Virus record (IMG/VR): IMGVR_UViG_3300000224_000011
Coordinates: 1 to 28,745 of that record
Strand: one strand, 5' to 3'
Origin: a virus
DNA length: 28,745 nt
Of the stretch, positions 5,567-27,333 are shown piece by piece. Positions within the stretch are counted from its first letter, which is position 1; every line of letters begins with the position of its first letter. The position numbers and the translations under genes were made by a program. The notes under the pieces were generated by a model. It had not been told where the DNA came from, searched no databases, and worked only from the letters and a program-made list of their open reading frames with translations.

Positions 5567-5576
5567 TTATAAATAT
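5567..5576 (-). promoter_or_regulatory. Putative late promoter, 96-residue tail gene
   Basis: Coding strand reads ATATTTATAATAAAACAACA; the ten-base core ATATTTATAA ends 13 bases before the ATG at 5553. It lies in the short gap after the tape measure start of the next operon unit and matches the core found in front of ten other genes. If it acts as a -10 element, the leader would be very short. Confidence 0.65.
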
Positions 5577-5580
5577 TAAA

Positions 5581-7968
5581 TTATTGTACTTCGTATAACC
5601 CCATTGGAGCCATATCTGGTGTTTTTTTAATAAGTTGCGCTAATAGCGAATTAGTAGCATTCATGTCTGTTTTGCTATTTACAACGGTTTGACTTTGTCC
5701 TTGGTTTGCCATTTGAGAAGCGCCTGGGAATGCTACAAAATCATCATTTTTAGATAATTCAAATAATCCTCCTTCTTTTGTAGATACTTGTGTTTTACCA
5801 TCTGCAGGTGAATTAACATCTCCTACTTTACTTAAAGCACCAAAACCTGCTGCTAATACTACTGCTGCTGCTATACCACCCACAATAGGGGCTGCTAAAC
5901 CTCCTATAACTGTTGCTGCTAAAGCGGTAGATACTGCAGCAAAAGTTGCATAAGCAGCATATACAATAGCTAACCCAACAACTGCTTTCAATGCTTTTCC
6001 AACCATACCTAAGGGGCCGATCATATTGCTTATCCCTTCACCGATTTTCCCAGTAAGGTCCATAAGCATTTGGAAAGGTGTTATTATATAACCAACTATT
6101 TCTAACATACCCCCTAACATTTCAAACACCGGCATCATAGATTCACCTATCATTCCAAAAATTTCGTTTATCCTTTCAGTTGAAGCCGCCATTCTATCTG
6201 CTTGCCCCACTTGTTGCCTTAAACCCTCAATTCCTTCTTCTGCTAATTCTTTTTGTGCCTGCTCTAAACCAACTGCTTCTATTCTTTTATTTAATAATGC
6301 CTCGGTTTCAGCTGCTTGGTCTCCTGTAGCTCCAGCTAGTTGTTCTTGTACAAATAAGGTTTTTGCTAAATCTTCTCTACCCATACCCACAGCTTTAGCT
6401 AATGCTTCTTGCTGTATTCTATTCATAGCTGTAAATTCAGCGGCTGAACCTGCTTGTTCAGATATTTCTTTTGCTACTGTAGCTAGATCATTATTTAAAG
6501 CAGCTTGTCTTGCTTTTTCTAAATTTATGTCTTTACCTAAAAGTAATTCTGCTTCTAATTCATTTGAAATAGAACTTTCAAAATCAAGTAAACTGCCTGC
6601 TATATCATCTACTTTAGACATTTCCATACCTAAAGATTTTGCAGTTGCTGCAGCATCAGCTATTAACCCCGGGTTTTTACCCAAAGATAAGGTTGTTGCT
6701 GCAGATACTTTGCCTATATCTTTTAATAAATCTTTTTCATTTAATCTTACCCCTAAAGCCGTTGATGAAATTTTAGCTTGAGCCATATATTCACCTGTAA
6801 CATCGTTTAATGATTTACCCGTAGAATCTGATATTGCTTTTATGCCTAATAATTCTTCATTAGTAAACCCTGCCATATCTCTCATTTCAGTAAACTGAGT
6901 AAGCATTTCCTTACTAGGTTTTACACTAGTACCTAAGGCTTTGTTCATTTCCATCATGGATTCTGACATTCCTTTGGTACTAACAAACACATTACCACTA
7001 TCTACTGCAGCCTCCCTTAATTGGCCCCTCATTGCTAAGGCACTATCATAAGACATATTAAGGCCTTTAGCCATCTCGGAAGCAGCTTTATCACCTTCTA
7101 CCATAGCCGAAACTAGCTTTATAATCATAGCTACAGGACCTAAAGACTTCATAAAACTCTTTAACATCCCTTTAGCACCTGCAGCCATAGATGCACTATC
7201 TACTGCACCTTTAGAGAAACCACCTTTCATGTTCTTTTGGATGTCTTCAACAGAAGCTCCAGATTCTTTAAGGGCATCATCCATACCCATTCCTTCTTCC
7301 CTAAGTTTAGCATATTTGTCAGCACCAAACTTCCTCTTCTCCATATCAGCTGCTATACCTTCAGCTTCTTTAGCAGCAGCCCCAAACATTGGAGCAAGAC
7401 CTGAAAGTAATGGGATTTTATCTAGTACTTTTTCTATACCCCCAAACAGAGATACACCTTTAGCATTTGATATATTTTGTACTGTATTGTCTACTAACCC
7501 TAATTCAACTTTAAGTGCAATAGCACTATTAATTTGATCCTCTATACTACTTGCTAAATTTAAATTTAATTCTGCTCTAGTTGCATCTAAACCTGCTGAG
7601 TCCTTTATTAATTTTGATTGGACTTGCTTTAGTGAATTTATATTCTTAGTTACTGCTAATCTATTATCGTCTAATTTTTTAAGTGATCTAGCATTAGTTA
7701 AATCTTCTTTTCCTAAAGCTGAAAGATTTTCTGATATTTTAGATATAGAATTTGTTGCTCTAAGTATAGCAGATTTTTCTGCTTTTTGAAATTTTAATTG
7801 GGTTAGTTGGTCTTTTAAGACATTTGAAACATCTTGTTGTTCACTGGTGATAGCCTGATCTGTGGCTAGTCTATCTTTAGCTATCTTATTTTGCTCGGCT
7901 AATAAACGGTTTTGATCCGCTACTAGCTGCTTCATAGTTTTAGCATTATTTATTTGTTCACCAGCCAT
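5581..7968 (-). CDS. Tail tape measure protein (functional equivalent of T4 gp29)
   Basis: 795 residues. The first 170 residues are strongly coiled-coil (Lys/Glu/Gln/Asn-rich heptads from MAGEQINNAKTMKQLVADQN onward). The centre is Ala/Gly/Met-rich helix. A long hydrophobic stretch at about residues 660-711 (LKAVVGLAIVYAAYATFAAV and following) fits the membrane-interacting segment typical of tape measure proteins. The C-terminal tail holds GGLFELSKNDDFVAFPGAS, a motif I associate with tape measure proteins of marine myoviruses. The gene follows two tail-assembly proteins, the usual order. Tape measure length sets tail length: with about 1.5 Å per residue, 795 residues predict a tail near 120 nm, which is a rule-of-thumb estimate. 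Its own promoter word lies 12 bases before the ATG. Confidence 0.9.
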   Translation of the reverse strand: MAGEQINNAKTMKQLVADQNRLLAEQNKIAKDRLATDQAITSEQQDVSNVLKDQLTQLKFQKAEKSAILRATNSISKISENLSALGKEDLTNARSLKKLDDNRLAVTKNINSLKQVQSKLIKDSAGLDATRAELNLNLASSIEDQINSAIALKVELGLVDNTVQNISNAKGVSLFGGIEKVLDKIPLLSGLAPMFGAAAKEAEGIAADMEKRKFGADKYAKLREEGMGMDDALKESGASVEDIQKNMKGGFSKGAVDSASMAAGAKGMLKSFMKSLGPVAMIIKLVSAMVEGDKAASEMAKGLNMSYDSALAMRGQLREAAVDSGNVFVSTKGMSESMMEMNKALGTSVKPSKEMLTQFTEMRDMAGFTNEELLGIKAISDSTGKSLNDVTGEYMAQAKISSTALGVRLNEKDLLKDIGKVSAATTLSLGKNPGLIADAAATAKSLGMEMSKVDDIAGSLLDFESSISNELEAELLLGKDINLEKARQAALNNDLATVAKEISEQAGSAAEFTAMNRIQQEALAKAVGMGREDLAKTLFVQEQLAGATGDQAAETEALLNKRIEAVGLEQAQKELAEEGIEGLRQQVGQADRMAASTERINEIFGMIGESMMPVFEMLGGMLEIVGYIITPFQMLMDLTGKIGEGISNMIGPLGMVGKALKAVVGLAIVYAAYATFAAVSTALAATVIGGLAAPIVGGIAAAVVLAAGFGALSKVGDVNSPADGKTQVSTKEGGLFELSKNDDFVAFPGASQMANQGQSQTVVNSKTDMNATNSLLAQLIKKTPDMAPMGLYEVQ

Positions 7969-7980
7969 AGAAATGTTTTA

Positions 7981-7990
7981 TTATAAATAT
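7981..7990 (-). promoter_or_regulatory. Putative late promoter, tape measure gene
   Basis: Coding strand AATATTTATAATAAAACATT; core ATATTTATAA ends 12 bases before the tape measure ATG at 7968 and lies immediately after the stop of the gp51-like gene (stop at 7993). Confidence 0.7.
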
Positions 7991-7992
7991 TA

Positions 7993-8244: not shown

Positions 8245-8275
8245 TTTAAAAAGATGTAAACGTATCTCGGGGGAG

Positions 8276-9007: not shown

Positions 9008-9039
9008 AGTCTTTATTTGGTTAAAACGTTTTTATCAGT

Positions 9040-9049: not shown

Positions 9050-9080
9050 TAAAAAGGAAAGTTCTTAAAACGATTATTAA

Positions 9081-9403: not shown

Positions 9404-9432
9404 TATAAAAAAAAGCTTGGCCGAAGCCAAGC
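9404..9432 (-). terminator. Intrinsic terminator after tail tube gene
   Basis: Coding strand: GCTTGGC, loop TTCG, GCCAAGC, then eight T. The stem is seven perfect base pairs (9432-9426 with 9421-9415) closed by C(UUCG)G, an exceptionally stable tetraloop. It lies 28 bases after the tail tube stop codon and ends the sheath/tube transcription unit. Confidence 0.92.
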
Positions 9433-9459
9433 AATTTATAAAGAAAAGAGAAAATATTT

Positions 9460-9948
9460 TTAGAAATTTAAAATACAATAATCTGGTTGTACTGTTAATT
9501 GTAATTCTACAGCAGCACTTTCATTATCCCAGTTATAATCACCGAAGGTAGCTTCTGTAATCATAGCTCCTTTAATGATCCATTCTGATACAACATCACC
9601 TACAGGTCCTAATACGTTCATAGTTAAATCTTTCTTATAGAAATCACTATAACCATCTCTACCTGTTACTGATTCATGATGTAATCTAACCCACTCCATA
9701 CATGCTTGAGCACCTGAAGGTGTAATTGGGTCAAATAACGTCATTTGAATTGTATTCCAAAGTGTTTTACCTTTAACGTATCTTGCAACGTTAATATGGT
9801 TTAATTGAACTGTACCTTGAGTTAATGAAACAGCTCCCATACCTTTTATTTGATATGAAGGGATTCCATCTACATACAATATAAACCTGTTTTGTTGTTT
9901 TGGTTCAAATGCTGTATAAAATATTTCGTTCGGGTCTAATACTGCCAT
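9460..9948 (-). CDS. 19: Tail tube protein (gp19)
   Basis: 162 residues, virtually the same length as T4 gp19 (163). It begins MAVLDPNEIFYTAFEPKQQN and has the family pattern: an N-terminal strand (RFILYVDGIPSYQIKGMGA), a segment on basic/aromatic strands (LNHINVARYVKGKTLWNTIQ), the loop MTLFDPITPSGAQACMEWVR, and a C-terminal strand pair (WIIKGAMITEATFGDYNWDN, then VELQLTVQPDYCILNF). Hexamers of this protein stack to form the inner tube through which DNA leaves the particle. It follows the sheath gene, the standard order, and is followed by a strong terminator. It has its own promoter word 15 bases upstream, in keeping with the high copy number needed. Confidence 0.96.
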   Translation of the reverse strand: MAVLDPNEIFYTAFEPKQQNRFILYVDGIPSYQIKGMGAVSLTQGTVQLNHINVARYVKGKTLWNTIQMTLFDPITPSGAQACMEWVRLHHESVTGRDGYSDFYKKDLTMNVLGPVGDVVSEWIIKGAMITEATFGDYNWDNESAAVELQLTVQPDYCILNF

Positions 9949-9963: not shown

Positions 9964-9973
9964 TTATAAATAT
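9964..9973 (-). promoter_or_regulatory. Putative late promoter, tail tube gene
   Basis: Coding strand GAATATTTATAATAAAAATA; core ATATTTATAA ends 15 bases before the ATG at 9948, in the 40-base gap after the sheath gene. Confidence 0.7.
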
Positions 9974-9988: not shown

Positions 9989-12046
9989 TTATTCAGGAAA
10001 TGTTGCTCCTGTTGGTAATACGTTGAAATCTAAAATTACATATTCTGCTGTTTTAGTTGGTTGTAAGTAAATCTGTCCTACTAACTCATTTCTATCTATT
10101 ACATCTGGTGTGTTGTTTGTAGAATCCATTACTACTTTAAAGGCATACAATCCTTGTCTTTGTTGTACTGATTCTAAGTATGGGTTTACATTTGCTAAGA
10201 AGTTATTTCTAGTTGCATTTGTATTTTGTTCAAATACTAAGTTATCTGATACTTGGGTTATATATGCTTTAAGGGCAATCAATAATCTACGTACATTTAC
10301 TCTATCTAAAGCACTTGCTCTTTTCTGTAATGTTTTCTGTCCAAATACTACAACTCCACTTCCTGGGAATGTAGCTATTGGATTAACATTTGCTTCATAT
10401 AAAGTATCTCTGTTACCTGATGTTAATTTTCTTTCTGCTCTTACTACACTTCCTAAAGCTCCTCTAATTAAACCTGCTGGTGCGAACCATGGGTCTGAAG
10501 AGGCATCTGTGAAAGCATAAACTGCTGGAATAAATGTTGAGGCTGGTGCCCAAACTGTTTGTCCAGTTGACGCATCTACCGTTTGTAACCACGGCCAATA
10601 TGTTGCTGCATATGAGCTATCAAAAGCACTTGCTTGCGTTGTAACTACGTTAATTGACGAGTTATACGCTGCTACATCAATCACTGCTATACAATCTGTT
10701 CTACCTTGTGCTAATGTTACTAACTTAGTTGCTATAGAACCATGTAGTTGTGAATTAATACCTGGGGCTGTAACTACATTGAATTGGTAATCATCAGAAT
10801 TACTTAACAAGTTAAGTGATTGTGTGTAATCATTAGTAGATAATCCTTGGATATTACCTGCTGTTATAAATTCATTAAACTTAACAGGTGAATTGGTAGC
10901 TGTTACATCATTACCTGTAGCATTGCTAAATGATCCTGATCCTCCATTTGCTACATTGTTTGGTAAGCTTGAAGTAAATGCCGCTTTTGCTGTTCCGTTA
11001 TTATCAAAATATTGTGGTGTTGGTTTATTAACACTTTCTACATAGATATAAGCACTCCTTTGTGGGTAATTACCTAATGTTTTAACATAATAATCAGTTC
11101 CATCTTGAGCTACCTGATAGTAAGTATCACCAATTGCATTTGCAATATAGTTTGGTGCAGTAGGGTCTAAGGATAGATTATTATAAGTTTCTAATACTGT
11201 TTTTGAGGTTGATGTATCATTTCCTCTTCTAACTAATAATGAAAATTGACCTGAAGCTGTGTTTACTGAGGCAATTTCCCATCTAATGTTATCATTAGTT
11301 CCATTATCTAAAGTTCCGTTAGCACCGTCTACCACTTGGTAGTTGTTCATATTTGCTCCTTCAGAAATAGTTTTTATTGTAAAAGAAGGATCCCACTGTA
11401 AGTCTGAGTCTTGTAGTGTGTATGTTAAATTTGTTCCCAATGGTTCAGTTGCTCCTAAAGATTCAGATGGGAAGGAAATTGTATCTCCTACATTATAATT
11501 TTCTCCAACAGTTGTAATTGTAATTGAATCAACTACTGAAACTGTAGCAGTTGCTCCATCTTGTGCTGCGATTGTAATCGAAGCTATTGCTCCTGTACCA
11601 CTACCTCCTGTAGCTGAAACATTATTTACTACACCACCATTTGAACCTGAAATATTAGGTGCGGGAGCGGCAATTGATGTTAGTAGGGCATCTACTCCAG
11701 TAACTAATTTACCACCATCTTTAGAATTACTTGGGATGGAAGAAGTTGCAGAAGTATAGCTTCCTGAAACTACACGAGTCATTAGTAATGATTCACCACC
11801 TTGTGCGAAGTAATTTCTAACGGATAATGAATTTAAGTAAGTATAAAATTGGGATCCACTTTCTACTGTACTTCCGAATATTGCTTCATATTGTGAAAAA
11901 GTAGAAACTGCTGTTGGAATTCCAACTGGTCCTTTAGTAGCGGGTCCAATAATAGCTGCACCATAAGTAACAGGTCTAGCACCAATAAAAGATTGGTCAT
12001 TTTCCCTTGCTAAGACACCTGGAGATAATAGAGTTTGCTCTGCCAT
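9989..12046 (-). CDS. 18: Contractile tail sheath protein (gp18)
   Basis: 685 residues (T4 gp18: 659). The N-terminus LLSPGVLARENDQSFIGARP followed by TYGAAIIGPATKGPVG is the classical sheath start, with the N-terminal strand that links sheath subunits. Conserved middle: YWPWLQTVDASTGQTVWAPA, then FIPAVYAFTDASSDPWFAPA and GLIRGALGSVVRAERKLTSG. The C-terminal domain contains LDRVNVRRLLIALKAYITQV and ends in AEYVILDFNVLPTGATFPE. Residues about 110-400 are a Gly/Ser/Thr/Asn-rich insertion, where sheath proteins carry variable surface domains. Sheath subunits polymerise around the gp19 tube and contract on infection. It has its own promoter word 28 bases before the ATG and is followed by the tube gene. 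Confidence 0.97.
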   Translation of the reverse strand: MAEQTLLSPGVLARENDQSFIGARPVTYGAAIIGPATKGPVGIPTAVSTFSQYEAIFGSTVESGSQFYTYLNSLSVRNYFAQGGESLLMTRVVSGSYTSATSSIPSNSKDGGKLVTGVDALLTSIAAPAPNISGSNGGVVNNVSATGGSGTGAIASITIAAQDGATATVSVVDSITITTVGENYNVGDTISFPSESLGATEPLGTNLTYTLQDSDLQWDPSFTIKTISEGANMNNYQVVDGANGTLDNGTNDNIRWEIASVNTASGQFSLLVRRGNDTSTSKTVLETYNNLSLDPTAPNYIANAIGDTYYQVAQDGTDYYVKTLGNYPQRSAYIYVESVNKPTPQYFDNNGTAKAAFTSSLPNNVANGGSGSFSNATGNDVTATNSPVKFNEFITAGNIQGLSTNDYTQSLNLLSNSDDYQFNVVTAPGINSQLHGSIATKLVTLAQGRTDCIAVIDVAAYNSSINVVTTQASAFDSSYAATYWPWLQTVDASTGQTVWAPASTFIPAVYAFTDASSDPWFAPAGLIRGALGSVVRAERKLTSGNRDTLYEANVNPIATFPGSGVVVFGQKTLQKRASALDRVNVRRLLIALKAYITQVSDNLVFEQNTNATRNNFLANVNPYLESVQQRQGLYAFKVVMDSTNNTPDVIDRNELVGQIYLQPTKTAEYVILDFNVLPTGATFPE

Positions 12047-12074: not shown

Positions 12075-12084
12075 TTATAAATAT
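12075..12084 (-). promoter_or_regulatory. Putative late promoter, tail sheath gene
   Basis: Coding strand CTAATATTTATAATAAAACA; core ATATTTATAA ends 28 bases before the sheath ATG at 12046. Confidence 0.7.
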
Positions 12085-12103: not shown

Positions 12104-12355
12104 TTAAGCTATTGGAGTAAATTCACCCTTTTCTAGGTCTATATTACCTTCACCATATTTTTCTTGAAGTTGATTACCTGTATCTAATTGGTCTTTTTGT
12201 AACTTCTCAAATTCTTCTAATAATGATTTTTTATTTTTTTTTAAAGATTCTATTCTTAATTCTATTGTACCTAAACCCCCTACTATTTCATTGTTTTTAA
12301 CTTGGTAGTCTTGAAGGGTTTGAATTTCTTCTTTTGATAACTTTTTAATGCTCAT
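12104..12355 (-). CDS. Small coiled-coil protein next to tail sheath gene
   Basis: 83 residues, almost entirely helical: SIKKLSKEEIQTLQDYQVKN, then LGTIELRIESLKKNKKSLLE and EFEKLQKDQLDTGNQLQEKY, with heptad spacing of Leu/Ile and a short acidic tail (GEGNIDLEKGEFTPIA). No membrane segment, no cysteine. Single-gene spacing with its own promoter word 18 bases upstream and another promoter in front of the next gene, so it is transcribed both alone and as part of the tail set. I recall similar small coiled-coil proteins beside sheath genes in environmental myoviruses but know no function; a tail-assembly or sheath chaperone is a guess from position. Confidence 0.6.
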   Translation of the reverse strand: MSIKKLSKEEIQTLQDYQVKNNEIVGGLGTIELRIESLKKNKKSLLEEFEKLQKDQLDTGNQLQEKYGEGNIDLEKGEFTPIA

Positions 12356-12373: not shown

Positions 12374-12383
12374 TTATAAATAT
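12374..12383 (-). promoter_or_regulatory. Putative late promoter, small coiled-coil gene
   Basis: Coding strand ATATATTTATAATTAAATAA; core ATATTTATAA ends 18 bases before the ATG at 12355, in the 46-base gap after the gp15-like gene. Confidence 0.65.
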
Positions 12384-13877: not shown

Positions 13878-15056
13878 TTATCCTATAAAAATTGTATATG
13901 GAACTTTTTGTAATTCCAACATTTTTGAATCTCCTTCTTTTGCCCTTCTCTCTAGTGAAGCCGCTCTAGATGTTTCATCTAAATAAGTTCTTAATCTTTC
14001 TATTAGTGCTGTTTTTTCTGCTGTTGCTGCTGCAATTAAATCTGATTGGTTTAATGTAACTTCAGAATTTGGGATTGGGATATTACCATATTTCCCTCTT
14101 ACATACCCTAACATTTCTTTAGCTAATGCTAAAGTATATTCAAAAATCCATTGTCTACCTACACTATTTATTTGGTTATAATTTGGGTTACCATAAGGGG
14201 TGTTAGAAACATTAGTTACATTACCTGGGGACTGTTGTACCCCATTATTTATTCTTTCATCTCTTAATATATATTCAAACCAAATTTTAGGTGGTGTATC
14301 TATCCCTGATTGTCCAAAATTAGGTATAGGGAATACTTTTAAATTATCTCCTCTTAGTTCAAATGAATAATTATTTCTCCTAATAGTTTCACTCATTTCA
14401 ATTTGTTGGATAACCGCTACTTCATAATTTAAAGGGGACATTAAGTACCCACCATCAGCAGCAAATCCTCCTACACCCATTACTCCTGCAGCCATTGCCC
14501 CACCAAAACCAAAACCATCATAAGGGTCTAAATATCTAGCAGATGCAGGATAAGGTTCTTGATAAAATACTCTTTTAACTTCAATACCATGCATGTATTC
14601 AGGACCAACATAACCACTAGCAGTCATAAATGTTTGAAAAGAATAATTTTGTTGGCTAGAAGTTAATGCAAAAGAGCCTGAGTAGTAATTTACATTACCT
14701 CCTGAACCTGCTTCTTCACCATATTGTTCTGATAATCTAACTATTGGTTCAAAATTGGGAGTTATAAGCGCTTGATTTAAGTTTGACGCCGTTGGTAATC
14801 CCTCCAGTGATAATTGATTATCTCGTATTTTATATGCGTATATTTCGTTACCATATATAGTAACAGCTTCTTCAAAGGCGGTAAAAAACGAACCAGATTG
14901 AAGTTCAACATCTACCAAAGGGAAACCTAGTCTTTGAGCACAAAAATTTGCTACTTTATTAGCGTCCACTGCAAAATCAGTATCACCATCATAAAACCCA
15001 AAAGGTGTTTGTCCTGCTGCAAAAGTACTAACCCCTGTCCAAATAGGTATATTCAT
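13878..15056 (-). CDS. Neck protein (gp13-like)
   Basis: 392 residues (T4 gp13: 309). The N-terminus MNIPIWTGVSTFAAGQTPFG, then VANFCAQRLGFPLVDVELQS and FFTAFEEAVTIYGNEIYAYK, matches the pattern I know from gp13/neck proteins of marine T4-like phages (a helical bundle that binds the portal ring). A Gly/Ala-rich loop (FGFGGAMAAGVMGVGGFAAD) lies near residues 182-201. The C-terminal part includes WIFEYTLALAKEMLGYVRGK and a charged helix. It is the first gene of a three-gene neck unit with a promoter word 37 bases upstream and no gene gap (1 base) before gp14. Identity is by motif and by conserved order gp13-gp14-gp15. Confidence 0.82.
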   Translation of the reverse strand: MNIPIWTGVSTFAAGQTPFGFYDGDTDFAVDANKVANFCAQRLGFPLVDVELQSGSFFTAFEEAVTIYGNEIYAYKIRDNQLSLEGLPTASNLNQALITPNFEPIVRLSEQYGEEAGSGGNVNYYSGSFALTSSQQNYSFQTFMTASGYVGPEYMHGIEVKRVFYQEPYPASARYLDPYDGFGFGGAMAAGVMGVGGFAADGGYLMSPLNYEVAVIQQIEMSETIRRNNYSFELRGDNLKVFPIPNFGQSGIDTPPKIWFEYILRDERINNGVQQSPGNVTNVSNTPYGNPNYNQINSVGRQWIFEYTLALAKEMLGYVRGKYGNIPIPNSEVTLNQSDLIAAATAEKTALIERLRTYLDETSRAASLERRAKEGDSKMLELQKVPYTIFIG

Positions 15057-15093: not shown

Positions 15094-15103
15094 TTATAAA
15101 TAT
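15094..15103 (-). promoter_or_regulatory. Putative late promoter, neck gene unit
   Basis: Coding strand CATATTTATAAATAAAACAT; core ATATTTATAA ends 37 bases before the gp13 ATG at 15056. This copy and the one at 22633 also contain the T4-type word TATAAATA on the coding strand. Confidence 0.65.
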
Positions 15104-15872: not shown

Positions 15873-15882
15873 TTATAAATAT
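15873..15882 (-). promoter_or_regulatory. Putative late promoter, phoH
   Basis: Coding strand TTCATATTTATAATGGAATA; core ATATTTATAA ends 23 bases before the phoH ATG at 15849 and lies just after the capsid-gene terminator. Confidence 0.65.
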
Positions 15883-15891: not shown

Positions 15892-15917
15892 AAAAAAACC
15901 CGGCCAAAGCCGGGTTT
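15892..15917 (-). terminator. Intrinsic terminator after major capsid gene
   Basis: Coding strand: AAACCCGGC, loop TTTG, GCCGGGTTT, continuing into a run of seven T in all. Nine base pairs (15917-15909 with 15904-15896), GC-rich and perfect, 27 bases after the capsid stop. It separates the capsid transcript from phoH. Confidence 0.93.
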
Positions 15918-17669: not shown

Positions 17670-18782
17670 TTAAATTAAACCTGCAAGTTTTCGCATACGG
17701 TTATAAATATCATTTGATTCTACAATTGGTTGTTTTGTAGCTTTTGGTTCTAAACCACTAGCTTTTGAAGCAGATCCTTTTTTTACTGATTCATTAATTG
17801 TTGGAGTAGTTACAGTTGATGTAATTCCTTCATTTAATGTTTCAAAAATAGTTTTTGCTTGTTCTACATTAATTGCTTTGTCAAATGCTTTTAATACCTT
17901 AACTTTTTTACTTTCGGTTAAGTTTTTTGCTTTAAAGATTTTGTTAGTGTAAAGTAACTTAGCGTTTAATAGGTTTACTTCTTGTAATTCAACTTTAAGA
18001 GCTTCGATTTCATCTAATGCTTCTTTAAATCTCATTTTTTCAGTTTCTTTCTCGATCTTAGTGTCATCTTTGTCACCATCTTCGTTTCCAGCCCCTTTTT
18101 CGCCTTTTACCTTTTCATCTAATTCTTCCTTTTTAGCTTCGTCGATTTCTACGTCTACGCTTACTTCGTCTTCAACATCAATGTCTTCAACGTCCTCTAC
18201 TTCAACTTCGTCTTCTACGAATTCGTCGCCTGGCTCTATTTCGCCAGATTCAACCATGTCTTTAATGACATCTTCGATGAAACCTTTAAGGTCGTCTTCT
18301 GACATATCTTCAAGGTCGATATCCTCGTCCTCAATTTTATCATCTTCGTCCTCTTTTTCATCTTTCATACCGTCCTTATAGCCTTCTTCTTCAGCGTCAG
18401 TTCGTGCATCTTCATCTAATTCCAATTCAGCCAGTAACTCATCTAGATTAACTTCATCTTCTGATAATTCTTTTTCTTCCTCTTCCTGTACAGTAGATTG
18501 TCCTACTTTTTTAGGTGTTAGATCTTTTAAAGAATCACCTGCGGGTGAATTTTTTCTTTCAAAGCTTGGGGCATCCATTTCTTTAACTTCATCCTTATCT
18601 TCTTCTTTTGCTTCTTTTACCTCGTCATCATCTTTATCCATCTCTTCTAATTTAGCAGATAGTTGATTTTTTAGGTAAGGAGTAAAAGCTTCCTCAAGGG
18701 CAAGTTTAGCATTAGCGATGGCAGTTTCTTTGACAGCTTTAGCATCAGCAATAGCTTCGGTTAACAAATCTCTGTTTGTCAT
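17670..18782 (-). CDS. Prohead scaffold protein (gp22-like), highly acidic
   Basis: 370 residues. Residues 1-50 are an Ala/Lys/Glu helix (LLTEAIADAKAVKETAIANA). Residues about 50-230 are overwhelmingly Asp/Glu, with small helical islands such as LKGFIEDVIKDMV (165-177). Residues 245-320 form a coiled coil ending in ESKKVKVLKAFDKAINVEQA and KTIFETLNEGI, which I recognise from gp22-type scaffolds. The C-terminus SNDIYNRMRKLAGLI is also typical. Position between protease gp21 and capsid gp23 is exactly that of T4 gene 22. The scaffold fills the prohead and is degraded by gp21. The acidic stretch (18060-18420) has a higher GC content and a low-complexity tct/tcg pattern. The ATG lies at the end of a leader with a hairpin. 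Confidence 0.85.
   Translation of the reverse strand: MTNRDLLTEAIADAKAVKETAIANAKLALEEAFTPYLKNQLSAKLEEMDKDDDEVKEAKEEDKDEVKEMDAPSFERKNSPAGDSLKDLTPKKVGQSTVQEEEEKELSEDEVNLDELLAELELDEDARTDAEEEGYKDGMKDEKEDEDDKIEDEDIDLEDMSEDDLKGFIEDVIKDMVESGEIEPGDEFVEDEVEVEDVEDIDVEDEVSVDVEIDEAKKEELDEKVKGEKGAGNEDGDKDDTKIEKETEKMRFKEALDEIEALKVELQEVNLLNAKLLYTNKIFKAKNLTESKKVKVLKAFDKAINVEQAKTIFETLNEGITSTVTTPTINESVKKGSASKASGLEPKATKQPIVESNDIYNRMRKLAGLI
17701..17710 (-). promoter_or_regulatory. Late promoter word inside end of scaffold gene, probably for gp23
   Basis: The exact core ATATTTATAA occurs on the coding strand inside the last codons of the scaffold gene (encoding D-I-Y-N), 64 bases before the capsid ATG at 17636. 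No other copy lies in the 33-base gap, so this is the best candidate for separate capsid transcription. Confidence 0.45.
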
Positions 18783-18806
18783 AATCCCAAAATTTAGTTT
18801 GTGAAA

Positions 18807-18827
18807 TACGCTTATTCATGAAGCGTA
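18807..18827 (-). other. Hairpin in leader of scaffold gene
   Basis: Inverted repeat TACGCTT / AAGCGTA with a seven-base loop, located between a degenerate late promoter word (18828-18837) and the scaffold ATG at 18782. There is no T-run after it, so it is not a terminator; it would lie at the very 5' end of the mRNA. Confidence 0.5.
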
Positions 18828-18837
18828 ATAGAAATAT
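18828..18837 (-). promoter_or_regulatory. Degenerate late promoter word, scaffold-capsid unit
   Basis: Coding strand ATATTTCTAT, eight of ten bases matching the late core. It is the only candidate in the 192-base gap after the protease gene and lies after the terminator there, so the scaffold-capsid unit must start here or nearby. Confidence 0.35.
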
Positions 18838-18848
18838 TTATTTAGTCG

Positions 18849-18874
18849 ACATCATATAAGAATGTTCATGATGT
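18849..18874 (-). other. Second inverted repeat upstream of scaffold gene
   Basis: Inverted repeat ACATCAT / ATGATGT with a 12-base spacer, upstream of the candidate promoter. Possible operator-like dyad; no T-run and no known binding site recognised. Confidence 0.3.
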
Positions 18875-18911
18875 ATTACAGTTATACGTATATGAAAATA
18901 TTTTAAAATAC

Positions 18912-18934
18912 AAAAAGCGCTCAAAATGAGCGCT
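18912..18934 (-). terminator. Intrinsic terminator after prohead protease gene
   Basis: Coding strand: AGCGCTCA, loop TTT, TGAGCGCT, then further T residues (five T in all). Eight perfect base pairs (18934-18927 with 18923-18916), 40 bases after the protease stop. It ends the transcript that carries the head-core genes. Confidence 0.9.
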
Positions 18935-18974
18935 CAATGTTTTAAATCCGTCGGTAGCGTCCGAAGAAATATTT

Positions 18975-21161: not shown

Positions 21162-21770
21162 TTAAAATAATTTATCTACTTCAAGTCCTGATCCTTTTTG
21201 TACATAAGTACCATTTTTTGTTTTAGGGACTAATTTATATTTAAATTGTTTTACATATGCATTATCACTAACCCCATTTTCTGTTGCTTTAGGTCCTGGA
21301 CCTAAATCTTCACCAGGTTGTTCAGCAGATTCTTCTACTTCTTTATACCCTAATTCTTTATATGCCTTAATATTTGGTTTTGAACCTTTTAATCTAAAAG
21401 CATATGGTGTATTGTAAGCACCCGCACCTCCTGAAGTAGATATTTCTTCTACTTCTTCTTCATTCATTGCTTTTTTATATTCTTCTGGGTAGTTATTTCT
21501 AACGTGTGTTCTAATAGTATTTCTTAGGGATCTAGCTTGTTCATATATATCTAAAAACTTTTTATCATCTTTTACTTTTTGATATACACCTTTTGCTGTT
21601 TTTGTTAATTCATCCACATCTTCAACTAATTTAGTCAAATTAGGAACATAATCAATAGACCAAGATATAGCACCAGTAGTAGGATCTTTATCTGTGACTA
21701 CAGATTTAACACCCCCACTTACTTTTGTATCTCCTACCTCTATTTCCTTAAGTTTATATTTATAAGCCAT
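21162..21770 (-). CDS. Head-core-region protein of unknown function
   Basis: 202 residues. Residues 1-45 form a beta-rich start (MAYKYKLKEIEVGDTKVSGG, then TTGAISWSIDYVP), residues 45-105 are helical (LTKLVEDVDELTKTAKGVYQ), and residues 106-125 carry the acidic stretch EEVEEI followed by STSGGAGAYNTPYAF. The second half is Gly/Pro/Lys-rich. The TSGGAGAYNTPYAF motif is one I remember from proteins of the head-assembly region of environmental T4-like phages, but I know no function. The N-terminus resembles that of the next small gene (MxYKYK). The ATG overlaps the upstream gene by 11 bases, indicating translational coupling. Confidence 0.55.
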   Translation of the reverse strand: MAYKYKLKEIEVGDTKVSGGVKSVVTDKDPTTGAISWSIDYVPNLTKLVEDVDELTKTAKGVYQKVKDDKKFLDIYEQARSLRNTIRTHVRNNYPEEYKKAMNEEEVEEISTSGGAGAYNTPYAFRLKGSKPNIKAYKELGYKEVEESAEQPGEDLGPGPKATENGVSDNAYVKQFKYKLVPKTKNGTYVQKGSGLEVDKLF

Positions 21771-22617
21771 TTGATACTCGAATTTCTTTAACTAATTCAT
21801 AATATTGTAATAAATCAACTAAGTTAGAATTATCTACTTTATCATTTTTACCCAATTCTATTAAAAATTTAGCTACTTCAGTAATTTTAACTTGTGTAGC
21901 TTTATCTTTAATACTTAAAGACTCTTTATTTAAAGTTTCTTTTAATTCTTGGATTTTGGTATTGTAAAATTTCCTTAAACCAGGTGTAGAATCTACTGAA
22001 TATATAAATTCCTTAAGTACTTGTTTTTGATCATTACTTAATGAGTTATATTTATCATTAAATTTTTCCAGTAAGATTTTATAAGTTAATGTTCTTATAT
22101 CTTTATCATATCCTGAATATTCTTCAAGTAGTTGATCTTTCTTAGATTGGTTAATTTTAGATCTAGTTAAGAATTCTAAAAGTGTAATTTTATTATCAAT
22201 TAGTTGGTTATTATCAATAACCCCATTTGTATTACTCCCTTCTATTAAAGTATATAAAGCTGCAATTTCTTTATAATTTTTTATCTTAGCACTAAAGAAT
22301 GTATTTAAGTCATAATTTTCTTTAATCTCATTGATTAAATTATATTTTTGTTTCTTAAGTACACTTCTATTAAAATGTTTTGAACTATCTAATGTAGTGT
22401 TTATATATAAACTTGCTTTTACTTCAGTTAATACTGAAGACTTGCTAATGGATTCGTATAATTTGTATTCGCGCCCCAGTTCCGTTTTAACAAAATATTT
22501 TCTTAAAATATCTACAGCTGCGGAGTCATTACCTGAAAGGGTATCTGAGGTTATCTGTCTAACTAATAGTTCAAACAGGATACCTGTATTTTTATACTTT
22601 GAGTGTTTAATTTTCAT
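21760..22617 (-). CDS. Conserved helical protein after portal gene
   Basis: 285 residues. The true start is most likely the ATG at 22617 (MKIKHSKYKNTGILFELLVR); the codon before it is TTG and would add only one residue. The protein is almost wholly alpha-helical with many Lys/Asn/Leu, including ITSDTLSGNDSAAVDILRKY and YSGYDKDIRTLTYKILLEKF-like helices. The opening 'SKYKNTG-x-LFELLVRQIT' is a block I recall from proteins located next to the portal gene in marine T4-like phages, function unknown. It starts the head-core operon under a promoter word 15 bases upstream that overlaps the portal stop codon, and it overlaps the next gene by 11 bases. A role in prohead initiation or core assembly is inferred from position only. 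Confidence 0.6.
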   Translation of the reverse strand: MKIKHSKYKNTGILFELLVRQITSDTLSGNDSAAVDILRKYFVKTELGREYKLYESISKSSVLTEVKASLYINTTLDSSKHFNRSVLKKQKYNLINEIKENYDLNTFFSAKIKNYKEIAALYTLIEGSNTNGVIDNNQLIDNKITLLEFLTRSKINQSKKDQLLEEYSGYDKDIRTLTYKILLEKFNDKYNSLSNDQKQVLKEFIYSVDSTPGLRKFYNTKIQELKETLNKESLSIKDKATQVKITEVAKFLIELGKNDKVDNSNLVDLLQYYELVKEIRVSNGL

Positions 22618-22632
22618 CAAAAATATATTTAT

Positions 22633-22642
22633 TTATAAATAT
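22633..22642 (-). promoter_or_regulatory. Putative late promoter, head-core operon
   Basis: Coding strand CTAATATTTATAAATAAATA; core ATATTTATAA ends 15 bases before the ATG at 22617 and touches the portal stop codon (22642-22644). Confidence 0.65.
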
Positions 22643-24540
22643 TAGGATTTTAGTTGAGATTCATCAAGTAGAGAAGAACTATCTTTATCTTGTTCAAAAA
22701 TTAATTTTTTTTCATTAATTTTATCAAAAATGTCCTTATTTTTTAGTAAAGTAATTTTTGGATCTTCAAACTCAGATAACCTTGGTCTTCCGTCACCATC
22801 ATTTTTATCTGTATCTTTCATTCGTTTTACGCCTAGAGGATCCTTACCAAAATTATTTACTTGTTTACCTCTATTAGTTATACCATCTTTTGGTCTTCCT
22901 AATTCTAAATCACCTGCATACCCATCCGGAACATTATTTGGATCAGAATCCATTCTTCCTTTACCATATAATGAGGCTAAATCATGAGGTGTACCATATG
23001 ACTTGCCTGTTTCTACAGGATCATTACCCTCTGCTTCAATTTGTGCTATTCTAAATTTACGTTTTGAATCAGCACGAACTAAATCTCTGTATTCATCATA
23101 TTGGTCTTCACTAAAGTGGAATACATTGTGGTATATCCAATCTGAAGGTACTAAACCTTGCTCTAACATTGTACCTGCTAATTCAGTTTTAGACTTTAAC
23201 AATTCAATTCTTTCTTGGTCATATATGATTGATGGGGTTGTCATTGATAACTCAAAGTTAGTTAAAGACTCATCCTTATAACCTTGGGTATATAAATGCA
23301 CTAATGCAATTTTTTGTAATTCCGAAAGTAAAATCCTTTGGATTCTATCAATTGTACGGGCAAATCTAATATCTTGGGCTGCTAAAGTTGCTTTACCCTC
23401 TGTATTTTCATCATAACCCATAAATGCTTTAGGTACTTTTAGGGCGGCAAATAATTTTTCTCTTAAATATTCAACATCAGCAATACCATCATATTGTAAA
23501 CCTGGAGTAGTGTCAATTTTTGTAGCACTATCATTACCACGAACAGGAATATAAAAATCTTCAAGCATATTTTGCATATTATACTTCAAGTTATACTCTC
23601 CAGTTTTTTCATCCATCATTGGAGTACGTTTCATATTTGAAATAGTTTTTTGCATAAATGCTTCTACTTCATTTGGAGGAATTGCTCCAACATTTACATA
23701 AAATACTCTTTTTTCTGGTGCACGAGCAATTCTATGAATTAACATCGCGTCTTCCATTAATGTATACTGTTTAAATAATTTTCTAGCTGGTTCAATATAT
23801 GCTCTACCATAAGGAAGGTAATTAACATCCCCAACCATTCTAAAGTGAGCCATTTCGTAATTATCATAAATAATTCCCCCTTTATCGTCTGGTCCTCCGT
23901 CTAGGTTTTGTCCTGGAACATTGTAGTACCCATAAGAACTTCCAGCAAAACCATCGGGGTTCCATTTATATTTTACTTCGGCAGGGTTTTCAGGGTTTGA
24001 ACCTTCAATTCTTTCAATATGGTACGCGGTGTAGGGTATAACATTATAAACACCAAATTTTTCAGCAATTTCTAATTTTAAGAAAAAGTCACCATATTTA
24101 CACATTTGTCTAACCCACATCCACAAGTTAAATTCTACATTTAGTACATCATAAAATAAATTATATAGAATCTTTTGAATATCTTCATTTGAACTTCTAA
24201 TTTGAAGTACTTCACCCATATCATTTTTAAGGGTGGATTCATCAGCTATAATATCTAGTGAAGAAGCTATAATGGCATCTTGATCCATTATGTCATATTC
24301 AGAGTATAATTGGGTTCTTAAGTATTGGTAATTTAAATTAAACTGTGCCCCATATAATGAAGTAGGTGCCGTAGAATATACTCTATTAAACCTATCTACT
24401 AATGCATTAGTTTCATATTCACCACTAGATTGAATATGTCCTGAATCTATTGTTTTTACTTGGTTACCTCCTACGTTACGTATAACAACGTCTGTTGAGA
24501 ATAGTCTTTTTAATCTTGAAAATACACCTGTATCTGCCAT
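22642..24540 (-). CDS. 20: Portal protein (gp20)
   Basis: 632 residues (T4 gp20: 524; the extra length is mostly at the C-terminus). Family landmarks: YRYST-like start region RFNRVYSTAPTSLYGAQFNL, then YDIMDQDAIIASSLDIIADE, the clip/stem region EFNLWMWVRQMCKYGDFFLK, VEAFMQKTISNMKRTPMMDE, DFYIPVRGNDSATKIDTTPG, LREKLFAALKVPKAFMGYDE and TLAAQDIRFARTIDRIQRIL. Twelve copies form the ring through which gp17 drives DNA and on which the prohead starts. The last 110 residues are charged and Gly/Asp/Lys-rich (DPLGVKRMKDTDKNDGDGRP), probably disordered. The gene directly follows the terminase, with its own promoter word 18 bases upstream. Confidence 0.97.
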   Translation of the reverse strand: MADTGVFSRLKRLFSTDVVIRNVGGNQVKTIDSGHIQSSGEYETNALVDRFNRVYSTAPTSLYGAQFNLNYQYLRTQLYSEYDIMDQDAIIASSLDIIADESTLKNDMGEVLQIRSSNEDIQKILYNLFYDVLNVEFNLWMWVRQMCKYGDFFLKLEIAEKFGVYNVIPYTAYHIERIEGSNPENPAEVKYKWNPDGFAGSSYGYYNVPGQNLDGGPDDKGGIIYDNYEMAHFRMVGDVNYLPYGRAYIEPARKLFKQYTLMEDAMLIHRIARAPEKRVFYVNVGAIPPNEVEAFMQKTISNMKRTPMMDEKTGEYNLKYNMQNMLEDFYIPVRGNDSATKIDTTPGLQYDGIADVEYLREKLFAALKVPKAFMGYDENTEGKATLAAQDIRFARTIDRIQRILLSELQKIALVHLYTQGYKDESLTNFELSMTTPSIIYDQERIELLKSKTELAGTMLEQGLVPSDWIYHNVFHFSEDQYDEYRDLVRADSKRKFRIAQIEAEGNDPVETGKSYGTPHDLASLYGKGRMDSDPNNVPDGYAGDLELGRPKDGITNRGKQVNNFGKDPLGVKRMKDTDKNDGDGRPRLSEFEDPKITLLKNKDIFDKINEKKLIFEQDKDSSSLLDESQLKS

Positions 24541-24558
24541 CTTAATATTTAATTATTG

Positions 24559-24568
24559 TTATAAATAT
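24559..24568 (-). promoter_or_regulatory. Putative late promoter, portal gene
   Basis: Coding strand ACCATATTTATAACAATAAT; core ATATTTATAA ends 18 bases before the portal ATG at 24540, in the 30-base gap after the terminase gene. Confidence 0.65.
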
Positions 24569-24570
24569 GG

Positions 24571-26145
24571 TTATAATAACCATTTAATGTTCTCTTTACC
24601 ATCTGGAGTGTCAATTTCATATGGGTTTTTTACTTGATTATACCCCCCACCATAACTTCCTTGGTAAGGTGTTCTATTAACTGACATATTATTTAATGAT
24701 TGTTTTGTAATGTCAATTCCTCTTTGTCTAAATTTGAGTGCTGTATCTCTTACATACATAGCAATACCAAAAGCCATAACTAAATCATCATTATAACCCG
24801 TCTGTGCTTCTGCTCTACCATTTTTCCAAATAAACACTTTCATTTCTTCTACTAACCTTCTTGATTGTATTGTTACTCCTTTATCACCAATATATTCTTG
24901 AAACTTCCCTATTACCATAGGTCTTGTTCTAGATGACATTGTAAAACCAGCTACCATCTTTGAATGGTCTTGATATTTGTCAAAATACGAATTAGCATTT
25001 ACTTCTCCACTCTTTTGTGAATAATAAAGGTTAGAATAGTTTCTATCTATTGCTACTTGTATAGTTGCCCAACCTATATTAGCGTTTTCTATTACAAGCA
25101 TCGCTTCATTATATTCAGTAGCTAACCCAACTAATAAATGCCCAAATTCTTTAGTTCCAATTTGTCCTCGGTATTCTGCAACTTGAACATTATCTTCTAT
25201 ATCAATAACATGGCATGTAGAATAATCTTTTCCATCACCTCTAGCAACATCCGCTACAACCATATAATTTTTAATATACGAAGCATTTTCCCATATCCAT
25301 AAATTTTGATCAGCACCCCTTTTTTCTAAAGGTTCCTTTATAAATGATTTTTCATAATATTCTAGGTATTCATTATAAAATACTATATCACCTGAAGTGC
25401 TAAAATCACAGTCACATTCCTGGGCTGCTAATCTAGGGTCACCTAATAATGCATCTTGAGCATCTCTCCATGTTTGGTCTCTTTCGGGGTGTACGTACCA
25501 AGGTAACTTAATTGGTAGAAAATCATTTAGGCCTTGTTCTGCTTTAACCCACGTCTGGTGGAACCAGTTACCTGTACCATAAGGAGTAGATAATACAATA
25601 GCACCACCACCCGTTGCTAGTGTTTGTTGTGCAGAGGCCCATGTCTCAGCAATATTATCAATAAAGGCTGCCTCATCTATTATTAGTAAGGAAACGGCTT
25701 CTGAACGTGCAGCATCAGCATTGGAAGATTTAGCTTGTATTTTTGAACCATTAATTAATCTTAATGATAATTTGTTATTTTCAGCTGAATCTACTTTAAG
25801 CCATGAGGGTAAATTCTCCCACATGAATTGTACTTTTGTTACTAAGTTTCTTGCTGTTGCTTGTGTAGTTGCTAGTGCTAGTACATTTCGATCTTTATGA
25901 AATGTCATTAACCATAATGAATAACCTGCTGCTAAAGTAGATATACCTAATTGTCTAGATTTTAATATAGCACTATAATCATTGTTTTGAAATAACGTTA
26001 ATACTTTTTCTTGAAATGGGTACAGGTTAAATTGTATGCGACCACGTTGTGGGTGCTGTATATAACAGTATTTACGCATAAAATGTACGGGGTCTTGAGC
26101 ACATTTTAAGTATTCTTGGCGTATTACTTTTTTGAAATCAGTCAT
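24571..26145 (-). CDS. 17: Terminase large subunit (gp17), packaging ATPase and nuclease
   Basis: 524 residues (T4 gp17: 610). N-terminal ATPase: adenine/Q motif near LYPFQEKVL (41-49), Walker A SRQLGIST (63-70), Walker B LLIIDEAA (153-160), coupling motif STPYGTGN (186-193). C-terminal RNase H-like nuclease: first acidic residue Asp299 in VVADVARGDGKDYST, second Glu353 in LVIENANIGWAT, third Asp453/Asp454 in TGYNDDLVMAFG. All catalytic positions of the gp17 family are present, so the enzyme should be intact. It cuts concatemeric DNA and drives it through the portal. The gene starts 4 bases after the stop of the lytic-pair gene and precedes the portal gene. A recognisable small subunit (gp16) is not seen in the window. 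Confidence 0.98.
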   Translation of the reverse strand: MTDFKKVIRQEYLKCAQDPVHFMRKYCYIQHPQRGRIQFNLYPFQEKVLTLFQNNDYSAILKSRQLGISTLAAGYSLWLMTFHKDRNVLALATTQATARNLVTKVQFMWENLPSWLKVDSAENNKLSLRLINGSKIQAKSSNADAARSEAVSLLIIDEAAFIDNIAETWASAQQTLATGGGAIVLSTPYGTGNWFHQTWVKAEQGLNDFLPIKLPWYVHPERDQTWRDAQDALLGDPRLAAQECDCDFSTSGDIVFYNEYLEYYEKSFIKEPLEKRGADQNLWIWENASYIKNYMVVADVARGDGKDYSTCHVIDIEDNVQVAEYRGQIGTKEFGHLLVGLATEYNEAMLVIENANIGWATIQVAIDRNYSNLYYSQKSGEVNANSYFDKYQDHSKMVAGFTMSSRTRPMVIGKFQEYIGDKGVTIQSRRLVEEMKVFIWKNGRAEAQTGYNDDLVMAFGIAMYVRDTALKFRQRGIDITKQSLNNMSVNRTPYQGSYGGGYNQVKNPYEIDTPDGKENIKWLL

Positions 26146-26149
26146 ATAA

Positions 26150-26554
26150 CTATTTTACTAAAAGTACAGCAGCTAATACCGCTACTACTCCAGCCCCTGC
26201 TGTTAATTTATTTTTAAACTTTTGTTTTTTTACTTCAAGTTTTAGTTTTTCATTTAACTGTTGGGAAAGTATAAGTTGTGACCCCTTTGTATCTAATATA
26301 GAGTTAAAATTATATATTTGAAAGTTAAGGTTATTAATAACACTATCTTTTAATATCATTTTATTTTCTAATAAAGAGTACTTTGTGTTAATTAAACTCA
26401 ATTCTTGTTTAAAGCTGTCCCCCGTTATTAAATCTTTAATTACTAGTCTGGCTATTGGTTTTTTTAATTGAATCGAGGTACTGTCTATAACGTTCTGTGA
26501 AAAACTGTTCAAGCTCATCACCCCCAAAAGAATCAACATTATTAACTTTCTCAT
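26150..26554 (-). CDS. Secreted coiled-coil protein with C-terminal membrane helix, outer partner of a spanin-like pair
   Basis: 134 residues. Residues 1-20 (MRKLIMLILLGVMSLNSFSQ) are a signal peptide with a Phe-Ser-Gln end, the style common in flavobacterial exported proteins; there is no lipobox cysteine. Residues about 50-112 are a coiled coil (LLENKMILKDSVINNLNFQI). Residues 114-134 (KNKLTAGAGVVAVLAAVLLV) form a C-terminal membrane segment. It overlaps the preceding membrane-anchored coiled-coil gene by 119 bases in another frame, the arrangement of lambda Rz/Rz1 spanin genes. Classical outer spanins are lipoproteins, so this would be a variant anchored by a helix, or a different envelope protein. 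Next gene is the terminase, 4 bases away. Function inferred from topology. Confidence 0.55.
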   Translation of the reverse strand: MRKLIMLILLGVMSLNSFSQNVIDSTSIQLKKPIARLVIKDLITGDSFKQELSLINTKYSLLENKMILKDSVINNLNFQIYNFNSILDTKGSQLILSQQLNEKLKLEVKKQKFKNKLTAGAGVVAVLAAVLLVK

Positions 26555-26819
26555 TTGTTTGTCTTTTTAATGTAACTATTTTACTATCTTGTTTACTAAT
26601 TTCTTGGTCTAATTTATTTATTTGACCATTTAAGGTATCAATTTCCAAGGTTAATTCTTCATTTATGTTATGTAAAGAATTAATTTTACTTTCTAATGCT
26701 TCTATTTTACTATTATACTCATTAATATATTCATCTTCATTTGAAGAGTACATATTAATTAAGTAGTAAGCACCAAAAAATACTATAGCAATATATAAAA
26801 ACCTTTCCTTAGATGACAT
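26436..26819 (-). CDS. Inner-membrane-anchored coiled-coil protein, inner partner of a spanin-like pair
   Basis: 127 residues. Residues 6-24 (RFLYIAIVFFGAYYLINMY) form an N-terminal membrane anchor with basic residues in front, so the rest should face the periplasm. Residues 34-95 are a regular coiled coil (YNSKIEALESKINSLHNINE and following). The C-terminal part has DSFGGDELEQFFTERYRQYL. The topology (type II anchor plus periplasmic coiled coil) is that of inner-membrane spanins (Rz-like). Its 3' third overlaps the start of the next secreted gene in another frame by 119 bases. The ATG overlaps the stop of the upstream gene by one base (TAATG). The lytic role is inferred; a tail-unrelated envelope function is possible. 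Confidence 0.55.
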   Translation of the reverse strand: MSSKERFLYIAIVFFGAYYLINMYSSNEDEYINEYNSKIEALESKINSLHNINEELTLEIDTLNGQINKLDQEISKQDSKIVTLKRQTNEKVNNVDSFGGDELEQFFTERYRQYLDSIKKTNSQTSN

Positions 26820-27307
26820 TATATCTTCTTTTTATCTAGAATACTTTCTAGTTCTTTTTTTAATTTAGTTTTATCTTTTAAGACTTTAACTAATTTTTCT
26901 TTTTCTTCACCTTCAGCTTTAGAATACTTTTTGGCTAATGATTTCATTTCACGAGTTAATAGTGCTAATTCTTCTTTTGCTTTGGCTAAACCTTTAGTTT
27001 TTTTAATATCAGATTTTGATGGTTCTTTATCTTCATCTTCTTTTATATCAGTTGGTTCTGCTTTTGATACTTTTTCTAATTTAGCCTTTGCTATCTTTAA
27101 ATCTTGTATTGCTGTTACGCTGTCATTTTCTTCATCAGAAATATCATTCCATGTTTTTAAAATAAATTGTGCAAACCCTTGAGCATTGGTTATTTTAGCA
27201 TTTGCTTTCTGTGTTGTTATTTTAGCTAGGGGGATATCAACATCCGCTTCAGATAAAGTTTCTATAATATTTTCCTTTATAAAATTATTTAGGTCTGATT
27301 TTTTCAT
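26819..27307 (-). CDS. Acidic/basic helical protein of unknown function upstream of lysis-like pair
   Basis: 162 residues, Lys/Glu/Asp-rich, almost entirely helical, no membrane segment or cysteine. Start MKKSDLNNFIKENIIETLSE; middle ITNAQGFAQFILKTWNDISD; then an acidic linker (DIKEDEDKEPSKSDIKKTKG) and a C-terminal coiled coil (ELALLTREMKSLAKKYSKAE to DKKKI). It opens the operon that leads through the spanin-like pair to terminase, under a promoter word 16 bases upstream. Length and place close to terminase are compatible with a small terminase subunit (T4 gp16 is 164 residues), but I see no diagnostic motif, so this is only a candidate. Confidence 0.5.
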   Translation of the reverse strand: MKKSDLNNFIKENIIETLSEADVDIPLAKITTQKANAKITNAQGFAQFILKTWNDISDEENDSVTAIQDLKIAKAKLEKVSKAEPTDIKEDEDKEPSKSDIKKTKGLAKAKEELALLTREMKSLAKKYSKAEGEEKEKLVKVLKDKTKLKKELESILDKKKI

Positions 27308-27323
27308 TATATTGTAGGTTTTA

Positions 27324-27333
27324 TTATAAATAT
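27324..27333 (-). promoter_or_regulatory. Putative late promoter, terminase operon
   Basis: Coding strand AACATATTTATAATAAAACC; core ATATTTATAA ends 16 bases before the ATG at 27307, in the 27-base gap after the P-loop ATPase gene. First late promoter in the window, marking the change from accessory to structural genes. Confidence 0.68.

Follow-up and report, generated by a model that had tools for sequence, protein, structure and literature searches.

A Variant T4-Type Late Promoter Box Probably Precedes Structural Genes in a Phage Cassette and Is Likely Read by a gp55-Like Sigma Factor

Results

A Ten-Base Word Recurs ahead of Structural Genes

Positions 1 to 28,745 of the virus record IMGVR_UViG_3300000224_000011 (hereafter the window, meaning the whole of this 28,745-base stretch) hold a T4-like structural cassette in which one ten-base word, ATATTTATAA, recurs shortly ahead of genes. 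We propose, with a probability of about 0.8, that the word serves as a −10-like box in a late promoter lacking a −35 element, that it represents the T4 late box with TT at positions −10 and −9, that ten such promoters lie in the cassette, and that they are likely read by a sigma factor resembling T4 gp55.

All 30 long open reading frames (ORFs) that we took as genes lie on the minus strand of the window, and among them are genes for terminase, portal, head protease, major capsid protein, a PhoH-like ATPase, head-tail adaptor, sheath, tube, and baseplate. The word is found in 11 exact copies on this strand, the coding strand of the cassette, at every position listed in an earlier, sequence-only reading of this DNA, and the distances from the end of the word to the start codon (12 to 64 nucleotides) are as that reading gave them. 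Its statement that no exact copy exists elsewhere in either orientation does not hold, as a twelfth copy lies on the plus strand at 21756–21765, where ORFs 21162–21770 and 21760–22620 overlap; likewise TAAAA, said to follow the word at most sites, follows it at five of 11. The 12 copies on both strands compare with a mean of 1.14 and a maximum of 4 in 100 shuffles. Finally, the word had been assigned to eleven genes, a number that we reduce to ten: ten of the 11 coding-strand sites look like promoters, whereas the copy at 17701 is probably due to chance, because it lies inside ORF 17670–18782 (370 amino acids) and is not conserved upstream of relatives of the capsid gene, being absent from all 72 distinct upstream regions (a one-mismatch copy is present in five). 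A capsid-gene promoter at 17701 was rejected for this lack of conservation.

The Word Is Conserved and Oriented in Relatives

Relatives were retrieved with the capsid and terminase proteins, the best 80 IMG/VR loci being kept for each (160 in total, some of which share a contig). Among the phage records listed, the closest isolated relative was Flavobacterium phage immuto, whose terminase is 62.8% identical to that of the window; second to it in the same list is Mel-JY01 (L170), filed under a Microcystis host, with a terminase 52% identical. We then scored the 100-nucleotide regions ahead of orthologous starts in the 160 loci and in five phage loci (immuto, in four pieces, and Mel-JY01), with the results given gene by gene in Table 1. 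Genes inside runs mostly lacked the word (terminase, one of 95 upstream regions; protease, none of 61). As a control we used the reverse complement of the word, the reversed word AATATTTATA having been dropped because it overlaps the real one; the exact reverse complement was present in just two of 34 upstream regions of the tube gene.

Among 533 distinct copies of the word in the 160 IMG/VR loci, 479 were located no more than 70 nucleotides before an ORF on the same strand and one before an ORF on the opposite strand only, while 41 were intergenic with no ORF nearby and 12 lay inside ORFs (ORFs being called mechanically, at least 70 amino acids long and starting with ATG only). The distance from word to start in relatives had a median of 16 nucleotides and a 5th-to-95th percentile range of 11 to 41. 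Counted by strand, the ratio of coding to other was 526:7 for the word, as compared with 25:30, 20:20, 33:24, and 23:44 for four other words matched to it in composition and 36:10 for one A-richer control word (three further control words overlap real sites). As none of the 160 loci counted as mixed-strand, orientation on both strands was tested only in the Rhodothermus phage RM378, described below. A weight-matrix scan of a relative, which the sequence-only reading had put forward, bore out the strand bias: a matrix built without immuto gave, at 9 bits or more, 18 matches on the plus strand of immuto and one on the other, as compared with 3.3 per strand in simulated genomes.

Register and Shape of the Proposed Promoter

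On the coding strand, the octamer TATTTATA within the word equals the T4 late box TATAAATA (−13 to −6) at six of eight positions, AA being replaced by TT at −10 and −9. Passages of PMC2988020 and PMC7892883 count the TA of the T4 box as −13/−12 and describe gp55 as flipping out A(−12), A(−9), and A(−8). Placing the window sites in this register puts the predicted start site (+1) about 5 nucleotides past TATTTATA, with predicted leaders of 8 to 33 nucleotides in the window, in agreement with the short leaders proposed previously.

A profile of the flanks of 312 exact sites from nine genes, with immuto and Mel-JY01 rows included, showed A or C immediately before the word in 284 sites and a free base immediately after it (T in 135, C in 94, A in 81, and G in 2). 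The bases that follow are mostly A (216), A (307), A or T, and then A (289), the last of these being the predicted +1, which is thus A in 289 of the 312 sites. The consensus in this register is [A/C](−15) A(−14) T(−13) A T T T A T A(−6) A(−5) [T/C/A](−4) [mostly A](−3) A(−2) [A/T](−1) A(+1). No −35 element was found in these 312 sites: between 30 and 2 positions before the word (about −44 to −16), the highest column reached 0.46 bit, near −27.

Conserved promoters showed 21 variants of the word with a single substitution, seven of them at −14, one at −11, two at −10, nine at −6, and two at −5, but none at −13, −12, −9, −8, or −7 (one of 25, at −7, if the PhoH-like gene is counted), a spread to which no formal probability attaches because the variants are related sequences. 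The word precedes structural genes on the coding strand, and it is from the functions of these genes that we infer their lateness.

Kindred Words in Other Phages

We ranked 8-mers by their occurrence before genes in other phages. The approach was validated by the cyanophage P-SSM4 (41 kb), which returned TATAAATA, present before seven genes in eight copies with none on the other strand. In a 50-kb structural-gene stretch of Mel-JY01 the search gave ATATTTAT, which stands before eight genes and has 26 copies on both strands, and in 41 kb of RM378 it gave TATTTAAA, before eight genes with 11 copies in all; the binomial probabilities, computed on top-ranked words and uncorrected for that selection, are 1.4e-7 and 6e-11, respectively. 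The Mel-JY01 sites have a downstream half other than that of the immuto-group word, together with Shine-Dalgarno-like sequences, and in a second 50-kb stretch of this phage (L263) ATATTTAT was neither enriched nor ranked. The RM378 copies before genes are four per strand, in gene orientation. Three of them read TATTTAAA-AGAAA-ATG, with the word exactly 5 nucleotides ahead of the ATG, so that the transcripts would be leaderless if +1 is placed by analogy with T4. The search gave nothing clear in LR756508. What the branches share is the upstream half, TATTTA.

In a separate observation, RM378 (L260:31040–31075) has a palindromic TTTTTATTTAAATAAAAA between two divergent genes, which could act as a shared two-way promoter.

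A Putative gp55-Like Sigma Factor in Relatives and the T4 Helper Proteins

A candidate for the protein that reads the box is immuto gp118 (L167:28174–28872), annotated as hypothetical, which in a genome search gave a weak match to the gp55 family phrog_234 (E 0.008). Its family is large, with members in at least 600 IMG/VR stretches, including two 62-kb contigs whose capsid genes are 73% and 67% identical to that of the window. Homologues are also present in Mel-JY01 and LR756508, and RM378 has a weak match to the family (E 2e-4, or 5e-4 with a profile lacking T4 rows). A structural model of the sigma built from 27 IMG/VR homologues (mean pLDDT 74) had as its best VIA match T4 gp55 in an RNA polymerase complex (7d7c_F; Z 9.9, 128 residues aligned, root-mean-square deviation 4.8), and most other VIA rows were sigma factors matched over region 2. 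As judged by this model, the gp118 family is predicted to have the fold of sigma region 2.

In T4 gp55, Y97 stacks on A(−12), N13 belongs to the −9 pocket, and T99 bonds A(−8). In an alignment of nine canonical gp55 proteins with 12 chosen new proteins, the Y97 column is Y in all 12 of the new proteins, whereas the N13 column is T in ten of 12 (N in eight of nine canonical) and the R57 column is T in 11 of 12 (R in eight of nine canonical); H95 does not discriminate because it varies within the canonical set as well. The new proteins are 229 to 260 residues long, as compared with 155 to 185 for the canonical ones, and end in a helical domain of about 90 residues. Folded alone (mean pLDDT 78.9), this domain matched sigma region 4 chains at Z 4.4, amid unrelated rows. 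By eye, no hydrophobic and acidic clamp-binding tail was seen in the 12 new proteins; it is not obvious in P-SSM4, S-RIM8, or ME01 either.

Searches for the helper proteins gp45 (PF09116) and gp33 (phrog_254) both matched T4 and P-SSM4, whereas neither helper was detected in immuto, Mel-JY01, or RM378; phrog_223 agreed for immuto and Mel-JY01. The clamp loader gp44 (phrog_168) was found in T4, P-SSM4, and Mel-JY01 and was not detected in immuto or RM378. It is possible that the helpers have diverged beyond detection, most of all in Mel-JY01. For its part, immuto encodes family A polymerases, and a passage of PMC11348598 describes a divergent family A polymerase-like protein in phages of the immuto group.

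Alternative Readings of the Word

Could the active box lie 4 nucleotides downstream, as TATAA(T/A)AA, either as a TATAAATA-like box or as a sigma-70 −10 box (TATAAT), with ATATT a mere upstream extension? TATAAT is indeed found at seven of the 11 window sites, and TATAAATA at two of 11 on the coding strand (15094 and 22633), because ATAAA follows the word there. The base after TATAA is free, however; Mel-JY01 and RM378 keep TATTTA and not TATAA, so that the shared core argues against the shift; and a scan for sigma-70 promoters did not rise above shuffles. We regard a shifted box as improbable, though it is the alternative that survives best. Sigma-70 promoters were themselves rejected (65 matches versus 67.3 in shuffles, and 55 versus 69.9). 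A Bacteroidota −33/−7 promoter likewise received no support as the early promoter of immuto, with three sites on the plus strand and 15 on the other.

Appreciably less probable is that the word acts in leader RNA, as a signal for translation or processing. It does always stand near start codons, but the distance to the start ranges widely, the word is missing ahead of genes inside runs, and one site is immediately preceded by a terminator-like hairpin (Table 1). Of slightly lower standing again is a promoter for a single-subunit phage RNA polymerase, which would suit a compact AT-rich word without a −35 element and the divergent polymerase-like protein of the immuto group; against it, six of the eight T4 box bases are retained in the word, and there is a gp55-like gene. 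No PF00940 match was found in immuto, a search that is uninformative because the control matched nowhere either.

Last, every one of the 11 window sites has TATAAATA on its opposite strand, which could suggest T4 promoters facing away from the genes; the sequence-only reading noted that a plain T4-consensus search would report them so, and offered a different use of the near-palindrome as one possibility. We dismiss antisense or bidirectional firing as the least credible of the four, because the T4 octamer, with its two changes, is present on the coding strand, conservation continues downstream on the coding side with no column upstream of −15 exceeding 0.46 bit, orientation in relatives is 479 to 1, the reverse complement of RM378 TATTTAAA is TTTAAATA and not the T4 word although TATTTAAA still follows gene orientation, and antisense transcripts would oppose the upstream genes, which run the same way. 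The T4 word on the other strand is best taken for a side effect of the near-palindrome, as the in-register alignment, the variant positions, and the A at +1 all fit the coding strand.

Several observations weigh against the proposal of a gp55-read box. The evidence is wholly in silico, and the transcript starts are predicted. With up to one mismatch, the reverse complement of the word matches 67 of 86 upstream regions at ORF 22620 and 12 of 25 at ORF 12355, as expected of a near-palindrome, and ATATTTAT of Mel-JY01 has no overall strand bias (16:10 and 11:10 in two stretches). As to the sigma factor, hmmscan of gp118 did not list phrog_234 at E 0.1, hhalign gave a probability of 3.2, the gp118-family profile without T4 rows found neither T4 nor P-SSM4 gp55, and a Foldseek search of the PDB with the full-length model gave nothing significant (best E 0.65); in helical models, moreover, a Z below 13 can reflect a common arrangement. 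The T99 column is Q, G, or S in the new proteins although A(−8) is kept, the R114 column is Y in 12 of 12, and the C-terminal domain had no clear fold match in the structure search. Mel-JY01 has a clamp loader and therefore may own a clamp too diverged to detect. Finally, the sequence-only reading had looked to a gp55-like sigma factor elsewhere in the genome: relatives supply a homologue with changed pocket residues and an additional C-terminal domain, while no sigma gene lies in the window, so that the link runs through relatives, of which three of 24 records (mostly fragments) yielded the sigma.

Features of the Window

Table 1. Proposed late promoter words and associated features of the window. 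The last column gives the number of relatives' distinct upstream regions with the word.
Feature	Position	Strand	Context	Predicted +1	Relatives
Late promoter word	5567–5576	−	before ORF 5263–5553; leader about 9 nt	~5562	4/4
Late promoter word	7981–7990	−	before ORF 5581–7968 (795 aa)	~7976	no score (just 2 regions found)
Late promoter word	9964–9973	−	before tail tube gene 9460–9948	~9959	33/34
Late promoter word	12075–12084	−	before tail sheath gene 9989–12046	~12070	33/38
Late promoter word	12374–12383	−	before ORF 12104–12355	~12369	exact 15/25; ≤1 mismatch 22/25
Late promoter word	15094–15103	−	before ORF 13878–15056 (part matches head-tail adaptor family)	~15089	54/65
Late promoter word	15873–15882	−	before PhoH-like gene 15118–15849	~15868	weak; exact 5/35
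Late promoter word	22633–22642	−	before ORF 21760–22620	~22628	81/86
Late promoter word	24559–24568	−	before portal gene 22642–24540	~24554	92/100
Late promoter word	27324–27333	−	before ORF 26819–27307, head of gene run ending in terminase 24571–26145	~27319	24/24
Copy judged outside the set	17701–17710	−	in ORF 17670–18782, 64 nt ahead of major capsid gene		0/72
Terminator-like hairpin and T run	15896–15917	−	9 pairs, 6 G-C; ends right before the promoter word at 15873

From its place in the gene order, ORF 5581–7968 would encode the tape measure protein. A second terminator-like hairpin with a T run is present at 9415–9432 on the minus strand. ORFs 26150–26554 and 26436–26819, also on the minus strand, overlap by 119 bases in different frames, which may reflect start choice or a frameshift. 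The gap at 18783–18974, ahead of the 370-amino-acid ORF, contains an inverted repeat at about 18915–18935 (GAGCGCTC); the exact promoter word does not occur in this gap.

Discussion

Transcription of the late genes of T4 is the textbook example of a two-part sigma factor and of activation by a replication clamp. The promoter described here works, we suggest, like that of T4 and yet does not have the T4 consensus, owing to the two differences at −10/−9. The idea of a late promoter word that is specific to the lineage and linked to gene starts is thus supported, as probably is that of a changed sigma factor, whereas a special use of the near-palindrome is not. In the proposed register the promoter resembles the T4 late promoter (TATAAATA, with gp55, gp33, and gp45) in its single box at −13 to −6, its lack of a −35 element, its AT-rich downstream sequence, and its location before structural genes. 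It differs in having TT and not AA at −10/−9 and further conserved positions at −14 and −5 (partly by word choice), −2, and +1, and the relatives differ in lacking detectable gp33 and gp45 and in having a sigma factor with a helical C-terminal domain and not a short tail. The late promoter of cyanophage P-SSM4 is also a single box before structural genes on the coding strand, but P-SSM4 keeps TATAAATA (eight coding-strand copies and none on the other strand, in 41 kb) along with gp33 and gp45. Aeromonas phage Aeh1 is likewise a T4-related phage with an altered late box; passages of PMC2988020 place its change at −13/−12 (a/gC) and not at −10/−9. No description of a late promoter for immuto-group phages was found among the titles and abstract openings listed by searches of the open-access literature, which is not proof of absence; in PMC7077304, neither "promoter" nor "immuto" occurs.

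How might the box be used? Host RNA polymerase carrying a phage sigma factor of the gp55 kind (immuto gp118 and its homologues) probably reads it on the non-template strand, with the A(−12)-stacking tyrosine kept and the −9 pocket changed in the putative reader. The ten promoters would then start late transcripts in the cassette. In place of the short tail of T4 gp55, the sigma would bear its helical domain of about 90 residues, and since gp33 and gp45 are undetectable in three phages with TATTTA-type promoters, this domain may take over from gp33 in holding the beta flap, with initiation perhaps not requiring the T4 clamp. The sequences establish the word itself, its strand preference, its persistence among relatives, and its flanking bases, along with a sigma homologue in those relatives and the non-detection of gp33 and gp45. 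The start sites, recognition by a gp118-type sigma, the role of the C-terminal domain, and independence of the clamp are all predictions.

More tentatively, and with the odds somewhat against so broad a claim, a T4-like branch comprising phages of Bacteroidota, Rhodothermus phage, and one Microcystis phage could have a one-piece late sigma (gp55-like region 2 joined to a flap-binding domain of its own), a TATTTA-type box, no gp33, and no T4 sliding clamp. If gp33 and the clamp are truly lacking, late genes in this branch would not be coupled to replication in the manner of T4.

In practical terms, a scan with the T4 consensus would place these promoters backwards, whereas the matrix derived here can be used to look for late promoters in a group that has hundreds of relatives in IMG/VR, and the analysis gives a name to an unannotated sigma factor, immuto gp118. 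A branch that has kept the late genes while its box, its sigma factor, and apparently its helpers have changed also allows two questions to be put directly: what the reason is for the two-part sigma of T4, and whether a link to replication is a necessity for late transcription.

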